Shown piece by piece: positions 9,320 through 53,720 of a DNA stretch of 64,000 nt. This DNA comes from Flavobacterium hydrocarbonoxydans (GTDB lineage: Bacteria; Bacteroidota; Bacteroidia; Flavobacteriales; Flavobacteriaceae), in the NCBI RefSeq assembly GCF_009789235.1, contig NZ_WSTB01000001.1, positions 1-64,000 of the forward strand, written 5' to 3'. Position 1 is the stretch's first letter. Every line of letters begins with the position of its first letter. The notes under the pieces are model-generated. The model was not told the origin of the DNA and made no database searches. It saw only the letters and a list, made by a program, of their open reading frames with translations. A program made the position numbers and the translations under genes.

Positions 9320-9342
9320 ATTCCTTATTTTAAACCCAATAT

Positions 9343-9612
9343 AAAATGACCTTATATACTTATATGGTTTAATTTTTTGCTACAAAATGTTCCTAAAGTC
9401 AACCGTTTTGAACGCAAAGTAAAATGAACTTATATCACTTATATGGTTTAATTTTTTTGCTACAAAATGCGTCTAAAGTCAACCGTTTTGAACGCAAAGT
9501 AAAATGAACTTATATCACTTATATGGTTTAATTTTTTTGCTACAAAATGCGTCTAAAGTCAACCGTTTTGAACGCAAAGTAAAAATGAACTTATATCACT
9601 TATATGGTTTAA
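9343..9612. repeat. 80-bp tandem repeat, about 3.3 copies
   Basis: Units start at about 9343, 9421, 9501 and 9581. Each carries the inverted form of the dispersed AAACCATATAAGT element, then TACAAAATG, AAAGTCAACCG and TTTTGAACGCAAAG. Copies 2 and 3 are nearly identical, so the expansion is recent. Confidence 0.9.
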
Positions 9613-13556: not shown

Positions 13557-13569
13557 AATGTATTTTTTG

Positions 13570-13618
13570 TTTGAAGTTTGAAGTTTGAAGTTTGAAGTTT
13601 GAAGTTTGAAGTTTGAAG
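13570..13618. repeat. Heptanucleotide tandem repeat (TTTGAAG)7
   Basis: Seven perfect copies of TTTGAAG, followed by two copies of the variant TTGGGAG (13619-13632). It lies immediately upstream of the DsbA-like gene at 12927-13556 (minus strand). Confidence 0.95.
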
Positions 13619-13709
13619 TTGGGAGTTGGGAGTTTTATTCGTGCTTAATAGTTCATTCAAAACCATTTTAAACACAGTAACCCACACATCCAACTAGTTT
13701 TTAAATTAA

Positions 13710-29297: not shown

Positions 29298-30752
29298 TTA
29301 TTTCTGAGGCAAACCACGTGTCAGCCAGCCGCTTTTATTGGCTGTTGCGATAGCGTAAGGCGTAATCCAAAACAAACTGAAGGTATAAAATATACTGTAT
29401 GAATAGGCCCATAATGATTCTTTGAAGTTATATCTTTTAGAATAAAAGAAAACTGAAAAACTCGATACGATTAAGATACTTAATAGTGTTGAACTAATAA
29501 ATAATAAGGGGTGCAAGACCACAAAAATCATCATGAAAATCAAAAACGGGTACGACATTGCTATCTTAAATAATTGATCTGCATATAAAAGACGGGTTCC
29601 AAACTTAGACTCATTTCTGAAATTCTTAAATACATATTGTGCCATGGCAATGTTTTCACGCACATTACTTCTTCCCCATCTGATGAACATCTTGTACAAA
29701 CCTTTGTAGGCTTCGGGTACGTTAGTCAAAACATACGCATTTCTTTGAAACAATACATTATATCCTTGTTTCAGAATCATATTAGTCATAGCACGGTCTT
29801 CTCCAATGTCTGAAGGCTGTCCCATAAATTTTTGATTGATCCATTCAGACAGGCAATTAAAAACAGCATTTCTGCGATACGCCGCTAAAGCTCCCGGTGT
29901 ACATAGAACAGACCCTAACTTACTTTCGGCAGAACGAATAAACTCAAAACTCATTACAAAACTTACGTTTAGCATTTTAGGCAGTATCGCTTTGTTGTTT
30001 AAAACCTGTACATTACCGGCAACAGCACCACACTTTTCATTGTTAACAAATGGACTTACTAAATTTCGAAGTGTATCTTTTTTTACAATAGAATCACTAT
30101 CTACCGTTACAAAAATATCCCCTGTACCAAGTTTAAATCCACGGTGCAAAGCATGACGCTTCCCTTTGTTTTCCGGCTGTTGAAAAATAGCCAGACGATC
30201 TCCTAGTTTTAACTTTGCCTGTTGGATCCAATACCAGGTATCATCTTTACTCCCGTCATCAATGGCTAATAATTGCAGTTTGTGTTCCGGGTAATCACTA
30301 TCTGCCAAACTTTGCAGTGTTTCCCAAACTAGTTTCCCTTCGTTATACGCAGGAACAATGACAGTACAGGTCGGTAATAAATCATCAGAAACAGCTTCTA
30401 CTGGCTTGTAATTGTAATACAGATATAGTTTATAGAAAAAAAGACTGCTCTTGAATAAGAATAATACCGTTGCAACAATGACAAAAGGGAGTCCCCAACC
30501 AGAACTTATCTGGTCTAAATGAAATTGCTCAAAGTCTGACTGCCATTTATAAACCAAAAAAGCTCCCGTTAGCATTAATACAGCTGTGCAGATATGTAAT
30601 GCAATATTTAACGGATTAAACGTTTTGGTATTTTCCTTTTTGGATGTTTTAGAATGAACCTGAAAAAGAGAACTTCCTAGAGAATGTTCTGCGCTAATGG
30701 TATTACTATTTGAAGAATAAAATTGTTCTGGGTTAATTGTTTCGCTTTTCAT
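29298..30752 (-). CDS. Family 2 glycosyltransferase, processive polysaccharide synthase type
   Basis: 484 residues. A membrane span at about 50-68 and another at 87-108, then a GT-A catalytic domain: TVIVPAYNEG, LLAIDDGSKDD, ENKGKRHAL, VDSDSIV (DxD), GEDRAMTN (the ED acceptor-base motif), and FIRWGRSN, equal to the (Q/R)xxRW motif of chitin/hyaluronan/cellulose synthases. Three or more C-terminal membrane spans follow. It resembles NodC/HasA-type enzymes that make and export a beta-linked polymer. No accessory export gene is next to it. Upstream lies the long repeat array. Confidence 0.88.
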   Translation of the reverse strand: MKSETINPEQFYSSNSNTISAEHSLGSSLFQVHSKTSKKENTKTFNPLNIALHICTAVLMLTGAFLVYKWQSDFEQFHLDQISSGWGLPFVIVATVLFLFKSSLFFYKLYLYYNYKPVEAVSDDLLPTCTVIVPAYNEGKLVWETLQSLADSDYPEHKLQLLAIDDGSKDDTWYWIQQAKLKLGDRLAIFQQPENKGKRHALHRGFKLGTGDIFVTVDSDSIVKKDTLRNLVSPFVNNEKCGAVAGNVQVLNNKAILPKMLNVSFVMSFEFIRSAESKLGSVLCTPGALAAYRRNAVFNCLSEWINQKFMGQPSDIGEDRAMTNMILKQGYNVLFQRNAYVLTNVPEAYKGLYKMFIRWGRSNVRENIAMAQYVFKNFRNESKFGTRLLYADQLFKIAMSYPFLIFMMIFVVLHPLLFISSTLLSILIVSSFSVFFYSKRYNFKESLWAYSYSIFYTFSLFWITPYAIATANKSGWLTRGLPQK

Positions 30753-30947
30753 CTTTGAATTACTATTGATTGCTTGTTACTGGCTTTTATATAAAAAATC
30801 TACAACAACACATTTTGCAAGCTGCGTGCCAATATGTTTTTTATTTGAGAAACAAGGTTTTAGCTTATTTAGCACGGTCTAAGAGTGTGTAATTATTATA
30901 CAGCAACAGAAATTTTTATACAAAAATGCCGTTTGATACACATCGTA

Positions 30948-31333
30948 CCCCTTGAAGGGTTTAGAACCCTTCAAGGGGTGAAGATGTAAACCTAATTTTG
31001 ACTTTCCAGACGTATCTTTGGAGCTTATTATATCCCTTGAAGGGTTTAGAACCCTTCAAGGGGTGAAGACGTAACCCTAATTTTGACGTTCCAGATGTGT
31101 CTTTGAATTTATTATACCCCTTGAAGGGTTTAGAACCCTTCAAGGGATGAAGATGTAACCCCAATTATGGCGTTCCAGATGTGTCTTTGGAGTTTATTAT
31201 ACCCCTTGAAGGGTTTAGAACCCTTCAAGGGATGAAGATGTAACCTCAATTTTGACGTTCCAGATGTGTCTTTGAATTTATTATACCCCTTGAAGGGTTT
31301 AGAACCCTTCAAGGGATGAAGACGTAACCCCAA
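30948..31333. repeat. Five tandem 84/85-bp units, each starting with a perfect hairpin
   Basis: Units begin at 30948, 31033, 31117, 31202 and 31286. Each starts with CCCCTTGAAGGGTT-TAG-AACCCTTCAAGGGG (14-bp arms, the last pair missing or changed in some copies); each arm is itself nearly palindromic (CCCTTGAAGGG). A shared tail includes one unit of the 21-bp repeat that continues to the right. No coding capacity is supported; the frames open on the minus strand only repeat the same peptide. Confidence 0.95.
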
Positions 31334-31835
31334 TTTTGACGTTCTGAACGTATCTTTTGACGTTCCGAACGTGTCTTTTGACGTTTCGAACGTGTCTTTT
31401 GACGTTCCAGACGTCGTTTTTGACGTTCCGAACGTGTCTTTTGACGTTCCGAACGTATCTTTTGACGTTCCAGACGTGTCTTTTGAGGTTCCGAACCCCA
31501 TGTTTGAGGTTCAAAGGTCCATTCGATAGGTTCCAAACCCCGTCATTGACGTTCCAGACCTCTCTTTTGACGTTCTAAACCCCGTCATTGACGTTCGAGA
31601 CCTCTCTTTTGACGTTCCGAACCCCGGCTTTGACGTTCCAGACCCCATCTTTGGGGTTCCGAACCTCATACATGGACCTTCGAACCCCATACACGGACCT
31701 TTGAACCTATCTCACGGGGTTCAGAACGTCATTCACGGAGTTCAGAACGTCATTGACGGAGTTCGGAACCTCGTTCATGGGGTTTGGAACCTATCGGATG
31801 GAGTTCAGAACCTCATACATGGAAGTTTTAACCTC
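31334..31835. repeat. Array of about 24 units of 21 bp centred on GTTCnGAAC
   Basis: Typical unit TTTTGACGTTCCGAACGTGTC. The first seven units are nearly identical; later ones diverge, but most keep a GTTC-n-GAAC-like palindromic centre and the 21-bp spacing (two helical turns). Several changes on one side of the centre are matched on the other (ACGTTC/GAACGT becoming AGGTTC/GAACCC). No unique spacers, so not CRISPR. Because 21 is a multiple of three, several frames stay open and give heptad peptides such as KDTFGTS; I do not regard these as genes. It lies between the divergent glycosyltransferase and GH1 genes. Confidence 0.93.
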
Positions 31836-32052
31836 AAAACTTCGTGATGAAATAGCGAAAGTCATTCTTCATCCTTTAACAAATCCATTTATTACGATAA
31901 TGATTCTAACATTAGCCTAAGCGATAAACTTCTAACGCTCTATTTTAAATTCTTTTATTTTTCGGCTTACGCCAAAGGTTTATATCAATAGATTACAGCT
32001 TCAACTTCAACTCTTAATCATTTGATAACATTAACGTTACACTCAATTCATA

Positions 32053-32060
32053 TAGTTTTG
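32053..32060 (+). promoter_or_regulatory. -7 box of the beta-glucosidase gene
   Basis: TAGTTTTG fits TAnnTTTG. It would start a transcript about 130 nt before the GH1 gene. Confidence 0.4.
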
Positions 32061-32085
32061 TTTAATTTGATTAAAACTAAATGTT

Positions 32086-32169
32086 ATGAAATTCTTTAAT
32101 TTTAATTTCCTGGTTTCATTTAAAGAATGGCTTTTCCTAAGAGCCATGCAATCAACTTTCCTTCATTAG
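32086..32169 (+). CDS. Possible 27-residue leader peptide before the GH1 gene
   Basis: ATG to TAG, MKFFNFNFLVSFKEWLFLR followed by eight more residues, placed between the -7 box and the GH1 start (28 bp away). ATGGCT/AGCCAT can form a hairpin inside it. It may be chance; no other support. Confidence 0.2.
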   Translation: MKFFNFNFLVSFKEWLFLRAMQSTFLH

Positions 32170-32196
32170 TATAATTATAAAAGGAAAGCTCATTAA

Positions 32197-33558
32197 ATGA
32201 ATAAATTTGAGAACTCACAATTGAACAAAGAACAATTTGGAGAAGATTTTCTTTGGGGTGTTTCTACTGCTGCTTTTCAAATCGAAGGTGCTCACGATGC
32301 TGATGGCAAAGGAGCCTCGATATGGGATGTTTTTACCTCGCAAAAGGGTAAAATAAAAAATGAGCACCATGCTCTAAACGCTTGCGACTTTTACAATACC
32401 TATAAGGATGATATAGGCTTACTGCGTGAGCTGAATATTCCTAACTTCAGGTTTTCTATCAGTTGGTCCCGTATTTTTCCTACTGGTGTTGGCACTGTAA
32501 ATCCCTCTGGTATTGCATATTATAACAACCTAATTGATTTCTTGATTGAATGCGGTATTGAGCCCTGGGTAACACTTTATCATTGGGACTTACCACACGA
32601 TCTCGAACTAAAAGGCGGCTGGACCAACCGGGACTGTGTGCAATGGTTTGCAGACTATACCGAGATATGTGCCACGCATTTTGGTGATCGTGTAAAAAAC
32701 TGGATGGTTATCAATGAACCATCAGTATTTACAGGTGCGGGTTACTTTTTAGGAATTCATGCTCCAGGCAAAAAAGGTATTACCAATTATCTGAAAGCCA
32801 TTCATCATGTTACCTTAGCCACAGTTGCGGGTGCGCGAATACTGCGTGATAAAGTTCCGAATGCTGCTATAGGTACTACTTTTTCGTGTACGTATATCGA
32901 ACCAGCATCAGACAAAAAAGCAGATGTTCAGGCCGCAAAACGGGTTGATACACTGCTTAACCGGACTTTTATCGAGCCAATATTAGGCCTGGGATATCCT
33001 CAGGATGATTTGCCTGTGCTAAAAAAACTGAATAATTATATACTTCCTCAGGATATACATAATATTAGCTTTGATTTTGATTTTATTGGACTGCAATGTT
33101 ACACCAGAGAAATTGTAAAAGCCGCTGTACTGATTCCGTACATAGGTGCTGAACTGATTACTGCCGACAAAAGAAACGTAATCGTTACCGATATGGGATG
33201 GGAAGTCTATCCTCCTGCCCTATACCACATGATTAAAAGGTTTAGCAGTTATAATAACATCAAAAAAATTATTATTACTGAAAACGGTGCCGCATTTCCG
33301 GATAAGGTGACCAACGGAAAAGTATATGATATACATAGAACGCACTTTATACAAGATAATTTAGAGCAATTACTTAAAGCTAAAAATGAAGGCTACAATG
33401 TAGAAGGCTATTTTGTATGGAGTCTCACAGACAACTTCGAATGGGCAGAAGGATATAATGCCCGCTTTGGCTTGATTCACGTAGATTTCGAAACACAAAA
33501 AAGAACCATCAAACAATCCGGTTATTGGATTCGTGACTTCCTTGCGTCTAATACCTGA
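32197..33558 (+). CDS. GH1 beta-glucosidase
   Basis: 453 residues, typical GH1 size, no signal peptide (cytoplasmic). Family marks: FLWGVSTAAFQIEGA at the N-terminus, TLYHWDLPH, acid/base Glu174 in VINEPSV, nucleophile Glu362 in IITENGAAF, and VWSLTDNFEWAEGYNARFGL with the substrate-binding Trp residues. It cleaves beta-linked glucose or related sugars from short oligosaccharides. Single gene; no transporter next to it. Confidence 0.95.
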   Translation: MNKFENSQLNKEQFGEDFLWGVSTAAFQIEGAHDADGKGASIWDVFTSQKGKIKNEHHALNACDFYNTYKDDIGLLRELNIPNFRFSISWSRIFPTGVGTVNPSGIAYYNNLIDFLIECGIEPWVTLYHWDLPHDLELKGGWTNRDCVQWFADYTEICATHFGDRVKNWMVINEPSVFTGAGYFLGIHAPGKKGITNYLKAIHHVTLATVAGARILRDKVPNAAIGTTFSCTYIEPASDKKADVQAAKRVDTLLNRTFIEPILGLGYPQDDLPVLKKLNNYILPQDIHNISFDFDFIGLQCYTREIVKAAVLIPYIGAELITADKRNVIVTDMGWEVYPPALYHMIKRFSSYNNIKKIIITENGAAFPDKVTNGKVYDIHRTHFIQDNLEQLLKAKNEGYNVEGYFVWSLTDNFEWAEGYNARFGLIHVDFETQKRTIKQSGYWIRDFLASNT

Positions 33559-38254: not shown

Positions 38255-38315
38255 ATTTTTTGTTTTTATCTAAAACTGGAAGTTTTAATTTGTTATATAC
38301 TTTGCACGCAATCTT

Positions 38316-38489
38316 GTCATTCCGTAGGAATCTCATCCTTCAGTGATTTGCGTTTGCTGAGATTCCTCCGGAATGACAAACTTTGTGTTGAAAAAAAATT
38401 AAACGCACAACTTTATACGCAATCTTGTCATTCCGTAGGAATCTCATCGTTCGGTGATTTACGTTTGCTAGGATTCCTCCGGAATGACA
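38316..38489. repeat. Two copies of a hairpin-forming element
   Basis: 38316-38378 and 38426-38489. Each begins TGTCATTCCGTAGGAATCTC and ends ATTCCTCCGGAATGACA, giving a stem of about 20 bp with a few mismatches. Confidence 0.8.
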
Positions 38490-38518
38490 AACTTTATGTA
38501 ATGCTATTAACACTAATA

Positions 38519-53187: not shown

Positions 53188-53720
53188 AAACCATATAAGT
53201 GATATAAGTAAATTTATATACGATGCCTATAAAAAAAAGCAGCTCATTTAAGAGCTGCTTTTTAGTTTTGATATGTTTCATTTTTTTTTCCACCATATAA
53301 GTGATATAAGTTCATTTTAACTTTGTGTCTATTTTAGAATCAAGCTTAAAATTTAAAAAAGACTAAACTAAAAAGCAGCTCTTAAATTGAGCTGCTTTTT
53401 GGTTTTGATATGTTTCATTTTTTTTTCACCATATAAGTGATATAAGTTCATTTTAACTTTGTGTCTATTTTAGAATCAAGCTTAAAATTTAAAAAAGACT
53501 AAAACTAAAAAGCAGCTCTTAAATTGAGCTGCTTTTTGGTTTTGATATGTTTCATTTTTTTTTCACCATATAAGAGATATAAGTTCATTTTAACTTTGTG
53601 TCGATTTTAGAATCAAGCTTAAAATTTAAAAAAGACTAAAACTAAAAAGTAGCTCTTAAATGAGCTGCTTTTTAGTTTTAGTCATAGTATATTAAATTAA
53701 CTTATATGACTTATATGGTA
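53188..53720. repeat. 137-bp tandem repeat with terminator-like hairpins
   Basis: The 548-bp gap holds four hairpins AAAAGCAGCTC / GAGCTGCTTTT followed by T (53235-53263, 53371-53400, 53508-53537, 53645-53673; the last has a G-U pair). Between them lie copies of CCATATAAGTGATATAAG and a shared block containing CTTTGTGTCTATTTTAGAA. The period is 137 bp (53271, 53408, 53545). The outer hairpins can terminate lacI from the left and uxaA from the right. Confidence 0.92.

Follow-up and report, generated by a model that had tools for sequence, protein, structure and literature searches.

The window analysed here is a stretch of 64,000 nucleotides from Flavobacterium hydrocarbonoxydans (NZ_WSTB01000001.1, positions 1-64,000; assembly GCF_009789235.1, labelled G000 below). 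Between two genes it carries 24 tandem units with the core GTTCnGAAC (31335..31838, no strand), recovered by TRF, by unit chain and by DNA similarity. Unit centres in the chain run from 31345 to 31828 with every step exactly 21 bp, TRF reports periods of 21, 42 and 63, and the unit-chain score is 101.4 over 30905-31845 compared with a maximum of 8.0 in 100 mononucleotide shuffles, which bears out an earlier note on this DNA that had described about 24 units with exact 21-bp spacing and a GTTCnGAAC-like centre. On the left is an 85-bp higher-order repeat (30946..31344; TRF, 4.7 copies, 92% matches) with four degenerate units per copy, spaced 20-23 bp in the unit chain. Because this block holds the same unit class, we count the whole array as 42 units (30953-31838, unit chain over the 85-bp block and the 21-bp run). 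Within the 85-bp repeat an extended unit forms a near-perfect palindrome of ~30 bp, the first of five copies at 30949..30977 and the five centred at 30963, 31048, 31132, 31217 and 31301. An isolated relative of this palindrome lies at G000:C37:23407-23453, where no 21-bp array was found.

The neighbouring genes encode 484 aa on the minus strand (29298..30752), putatively glycosyltransferase-like, and 453 aa on the plus strand (32197..33558), putatively beta-glucosidase-like, both judged from reading the sequence alone; as previously described, both point away from the array. In relatives this pair keeps its order but is spaced more widely: the distance is about 5 kb in two of them (G008 and G117), 11-52 kb in 15 others and about 955 kb in G111, the remaining relatives that show both genes having them on different contigs. 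Since the interval is so much shorter in the window (30753-32196), the array sits at an indel or rearrangement junction. Other tandem repeats of the window (TRF) lie at 53234-53679 (137 bp x3.3), 9328-9612 (80 bp x3.6), 13569-13635 (heptamer GTTTGAA x9.6) and 38299-38499 (111 bp x1.8). Rfam gives a single match at gathering score in the window and none at the array; the match is the Flavo-1 RNA (RF01705, 21971-22048).

Several simple identities for the array can be set aside. The units follow one another directly at 21 bp without spacers, as had been claimed, so it is not a CRISPR. Several reading frames are open across it; by our own reading, the conservation of GTT and AAC takes in all three codon positions, which makes non-coding the better reading of the sequence despite the open frames, in agreement with the earlier description. 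A coding heptapeptide repeat (21 bp being seven codons) is rejected on the same indifference to codon position and because steps of 20, 22, 23 and 43 occur. The LexA motifs given for Bacteroidetes in the part of the source available, GGA-N5-TCC and CTAA-N5-TTAG, differ from the units (PMC8565304), and a terminator role does not fit genes that flank arrays divergently, convergently or co-directionally with no clear preference (by reading only). The proposal that flank changes within units are symmetric did not survive: mirror-image inner flanks occur in 1 of the 24 window units compared with 3.1 expected after shuffling, and left and right arms of 191 units of G000 agree at none of ten distances above within-array shuffles, agreement at distance 6 being below them (z -3.8). 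Arrays of G114 exceed shuffles at one of ten distances (distance 7, z 5.0). Nor is the dyad core universal, with dyad z>2 in 39 of 87 arrays.

DNA similarity and unit chains reveal at least 12 such arrays in G000, six of the twelve touching contig ends and two adjoining copies of a gene for a protein of ~160 aa. This number makes it unlikely that the window array is a single origin or centromere. Two of the arrays (L051:7836-8339 and L056:7783-8349) match over a long series of similar units in near-parallel order, and their asymmetric units switch orientation at matching places.

The ~160-aa family was found from the arrays, by clustering ORFs within 4 kb of them with no prior idea of a partner. 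The largest cluster was translated array; the second largest was this family, at 14 loci and a median of 76 bp from the array. At a looser threshold it was found at 15 loci, with the array 3' of the gene in 12 and 5' in 3. Hosts of these array-found members include Flavobacterium, Kaistella, Tannerella and other Bacteroidota, Treponema, the Nostocales Nostoc, Tolypothrix and Hassallia, Ralstonia and a Burkholderiaceae strain. A profile search with the 14 members placed the gene in 35 of 199 Flavobacterium genomes (70 places), 31 of 395 genomes of a phylum sample (57 places) and 26 of 30 array genomes picked for diversity (81 places), Kaistella chaponensis DSM 23145 and F. cutihirudinis DSM 25795 being among these 26. 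For the members scanned, searches of Pfam, NCBIfam, PHROG, PADLOC and PDB sequences gave nothing meaningful, and profile scans detect no recognisable DNA-binding domain, no catalytic domain and no Y1 transposase profile match. In AlphaFold models, made with ten sequences each and reaching a mean pLDDT of 85 and 80, the protein is all-helical, one helix spans 53-55 residues and the tail is disordered; Foldseek finds no PDB fold for them at E<=0.001, and the best VIA-align Z of 4.2 says little. The protein is acidic (median pI 5.2) and under purifying selection, dN/dS being 0.05-0.15 in the 17 pairs, out of 20, for which it was computable, some of them with saturated dS. In some subfamilies the same neighbour genes recur over 3-5 genomes, a pattern that resembles vertical inheritance. 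Viral or plasmid carriage was rejected on a search with one Nostoc protein, which yielded no relative among viral_contigs and a single one among 72,556 plasmid records.

Starting from the gene gives the same association. Calling an array when the best lag is 20-23 or 41-44 at z>=6 within 600 bp (a threshold that we set), arrays adjoin 90 of 115 gene copies outside the family definition, from which the four Flavobacterium copies used to define the family are left out and of which 21 come from genomes selected for arrays. These arrays are of 21 or 22 bp, mostly 3', and their unit sequences differ, varying between subfamilies and between genomes. Within Flavobacterium the proportion is 58 of 69, with the array 3' of the gene in 51 and 5' in 7; the seventieth place is a second piece of one of the 69, and among the 11 misses are fragments, copies at contig ends and signals short of the threshold. 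Outside the genus, together with F. cutihirudinis, a 3' array is present at 19 of 21 copies not found via arrays, these being the 30 of the 81 places with loci minus 9 found through arrays, in genomes that had been chosen for arrays. The phylum sample yields 17 of 29 copies (one per genome from 29 genomes other than G000, taken from the 57 places); of the 12 below threshold here and the 11 genus misses together, some are fragments or lie at contig ends, others show lag 21, 22 or 43 at z<6 and several show no signal. By comparison, an array was called at none of 23 offset places in the Flavobacterium genomes examined and at none of 49 RAYT loci, a set that omits L072, whose array was known beforehand (1 of 50 with it), and in which several loci overlap or start inside the gene as partial matches. 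The filter does not account for this lag: over a free range of 12-60 a total of 103 of 111 strong flanks (z>=6) fall at 21, 22, 42, 43 or 44, whereas 15 of 202 control flanks reach z>=6, one of them at lag 21 (L072 omitted). The gene is also present in five of the six Flavobacterium genomes with the GTTCnGAAC pattern and in 30 of the 193 others (Fisher p 0.0007).

Period tracks the protein clade. On a quick tree of 65 proteins, which gave long-branch warnings, period class (none, or a two-unit length of 42, 43 or 44 bp, assigned by our own rule) changes 16 times compared with a mean of 30.4 after shuffling, and none of 200 shuffles is as low; array side changes 3 times, a figure that comes without a shuffle. 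One seven-member clade has 43 bp in all seven, and an 11-member clade has 9 members at 22/44 bp and 2 with no usable signal. The paralogues of G013 differ from one another (42, 43, and 42 on the 5' side). Judging from these comparisons, period class and array side follow the protein tree, partly because whole loci descend together. The array letters themselves show no clear excess conservation over expectation: in six close 22-bp pairs (computed dS 0.13-0.50) the array side diverges by ~3-16%, and in one pair at dS 0.64 it aligns at 57.5%. At 17 loci in 11 genomes a small ORF with HTH and coiled coil (~120 aa; L272:2359-2721 and 16 further ORFs) lies beyond the array on the same strand, in the order gene, array, HTH gene. 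Twelve of these loci have 22-bp arrays, with the ORF 336-494 bp from the ~160-aa gene, and five belong to a neighbouring clade, at 61-675 bp; the HTH matches fall below the Pfam cut-off.

G000 has four copies of the ~160-aa gene, all with an adjoining array. By counts of 9-mers shared with those four arrays, the window array is nearest to that of G000:C4:68834 (134, compared with 62, 52 and 8 for the other copies). The arrays at L049, L054, L055 and L058 sort with the same copy, and those at L051 and L056 lean weakly to it; L047 sorts with G000:C2:203582 (194 shared 9-mers) and L050 and L053 with G000:C12:409874 (104 and 74). None of the dispersed arrays compared sorts with the array of the fourth copy. 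Most dispersed arrays of G000 thus resemble the array of one paralogue. Arrays of 22 bp are likewise dispersed in G066, G127 and G046.

The repeat type itself is widely spread. The earlier note had suggested searching other Flavobacterium genomes for 21-bp GTTCnGAAC arrays, and the exact two-unit pattern is indeed present in 6 of 199 genomes, the source genome included, one of the six (G093) having a single match with a step of 22 bp rather than 21; in the phylum sample it occurs in 2 of 395, again with the source included. A three-unit pattern, which has 24 fixed bases and for which we estimate ~0.001 chance matches in 257 Gb, matches at least 118 stretches in a species-level genome collection. 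The matches listed cover at least eight phyla, which we assigned from record titles: Cyanobacteria, Bacteroidota, Spirochaetota, Planctomycetota, Pseudomonadota, Acidobacteriota, Actinomycetota, Fibrobacterota and Ignavibacteria. This pattern fixes core and step, and the flanks inside the units differ among organisms. Two units within 2-32 bp gave 780 forward matches compared with 21 for the reversed pattern in 32 genomes, of which 30 had been reached through three-unit stretches, and the step is 21 bp in 74 of the 75 forward matches listed (7 of the 32 genomes, nearly all chosen for that step). In G629, G630, G625 and G635, arrays with the same core were found and no member of the ~160-aa family was detected. 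G629 is Nocardia brasiliensis and G630 is Actinokineospora xionganensis, whose arrays lie on several contigs.

That the ~160-aa gene usually has repeats beside it points to a partnership between a protein and repeat DNA. In ParB-parS and iteron-Rep systems a protein encoded close by loads onto dyad or phased sites, and the earlier note had proposed a protein-loading platform of the iteron or parS kind, a decoy array or a structured RNA. The platform is still the best reading and now has a candidate protein, although the argument from symmetric changes that had been offered for it fails. The arrays resemble ParB-parS and iteron-Rep in their dyad or phased sites and differ from them in numbering at least 12 in one genome, with several paralogues that have differing arrays; Pfam scans of ten ORFs beside arrays found no Rep or ParA/ParB.

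We lean towards the view that the array is a phased DNA platform which the ~160-aa protein, or an HTH partner, would bind. The system would have two parts, an all-helical protein of ~160 aa and satellite arrays of 21 or 22 bp, each array unit being two helical turns long; an array usually lies next to the gene, and related arrays are scattered through intergenic regions. The protein would bind one unit every two helical turns or, in some subfamilies, the HTH protein coded just past the array would bind instead. Bound copies would then share the same face of the helix and form a filament or cluster, and dispersed cognate arrays, the window's among them, would be additional assembly sites. Several results speak against this view: the acidic pI of the protein and the profile scans that detect no DNA-binding domain in it, the gene copies that fall below the array threshold, the four array genomes in which no family member was detected, the dyad core confined to part of the arrays, and array letters with no clear excess conservation. 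The window array is best read as a probable remote cognate member of such a two-part system. We infer DNA binding, assembly and a downstream role; the last might lie in clustering of the chromosome, in local silencing or in arrays propagating themselves. A broader and tentative proposal, which we hold to be doubtful as it stands, is a pan-bacterial system whose proteins, all of one orphan family, make and sustain phased satellite families of their own, with an array at the gene plus chromosomal copies, the unit length (mean 21, 21.5 or 22 bp) being set by the protein subfamily.

Satellites of this type were already known. In the part of their account available, Subirana and Messeguer describe bacterial satellites of 20-23 nt (mainly 20-21) as enigmatic, constant in size and with no obvious function, and propose a protein that polymerises on DNA (PMC8161180). 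Our arrays share with theirs a length of about two helical turns, families within species, dispersal, a mostly non-coding location and a short conserved sequence inside the units (PMC8161180). The window array has tandem units of 20-23 nt in at least four copies, and the length is constant while unit sequence varies among genomes and subfamilies. However, the same part reports no sequence conservation between species, whereas the GTTCnGAAC core recurs here in at least eight phyla, and it names no partner gene, whereas here there is a linked ~160-aa family (PMC8161180). This link appears to be the new part: in what we consulted of the literature on bacterial satellites and REPs (including PMC6344855, PMC6749651, PMC8161180, PMC8625621, PMC3733652 and PMC2817692) we found no earlier account of a protein-array link. 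A ~160-aa family next to enigmatic satellites offers a handle for binding, knock-out and ChIP tests. If the arrays are phased docking sites whose sequences match individual paralogues, the family would bring both a novel set of protein-DNA pairs and a novel means of organising or colonising bacterial chromosomes.

A rival reading is a selfish or domesticated satellite: the protein would create, amplify or spread its own array family, in the manner proposed for RAYTs and their REPs, while the host gains little. The patchy spread of the gene (35 of 199 genus genomes and 31 of 395 phylum genomes), its several paralogues with differing arrays, its wide phyletic range and the near-parallel unit order of L051 and L056 speak for it. 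However, profile scans found no catalytic domain in the protein, and both its purifying selection and the neighbour genes common to some subfamilies over 3-5 genomes speak against this reading, which we consider rather unlikely.

It is improbable, in our estimate, that the arrays act as RNA, transcribed into many hairpins that the protein binds. Folding of the window array is far more favourable than that of shuffles (z -12.7), and the 52-nt satellites of Bacillus coagulans are transcribed according to the parts of the sources consulted (PMC8161180, PMC8625621). However, a tandem palindrome would fold well anyway, Rfam has no match at the array and the units of G000 show no symmetric covariation. 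In addition, strict 21/22-bp phasing fits the double helix, and terminator-like hairpins separate gene and array in 38 of 77 3' cases (a count made without a control set).

As a further rival, the arrays could be passive satellites made by replication slippage, the gene just happening to sit at a tolerant site. The turnover of array sequence (~3-16% in the six 22-bp pairs and 57.5% alignment at dS 0.64) is in keeping with slippage; but adjacency at 90 of 115 copies compared with none of the 23 offset places or 49 RAYT loci, a nearly single period class across many phyla and a common core in at least eight phyla leave it very little room.

REP or BIME elements mobilised by a RAYT transposase are scarcely credible as a source of the arrays and are largely refuted by the RAYT-locus controls and by differing palindromes: the array at G000:C12:410k does end 185 bp ahead of a RAYT-like gene, but 0 of 49 RAYT loci have such arrays (L072 omitted), 1 of 8 RAYT-profile matches in G000 adjoins one, an array occurs in G058 without any RAYT match, and in this lineage RAYT genes have another palindrome inside and around them. 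The protein platform is nevertheless like RAYT-REP in pairing a gene with cognate palindromic repeats alongside and dispersed genome copies, and unlike it in being strictly tandem, phased and mostly one array on one side rather than two inverted REPs, as far as the portions consulted describe them (PMC2817692, PMC3733652); the mark of RAYT-REP, a Y1 transposase gene flanked by an inverted repeat, was not found here. CGTC-tagged REPs, in the available part of their description, are likewise small palindromes with no dedicated transposase, Bacteroidetes included, but they are stem-loops with a CGTC tag and occur as dimers, whereas the arrays here are long and have a 21-bp step (PMC3733652). The tag, which stands at one end of every such element, is at the relevant place in 15 of the 48 half-units of the window array by our own count. 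A tandem arrangement of REPs was seen in G016, where a RAYT gene is preceded by about six tandem copies of the GTAG type (L073:857-1210).
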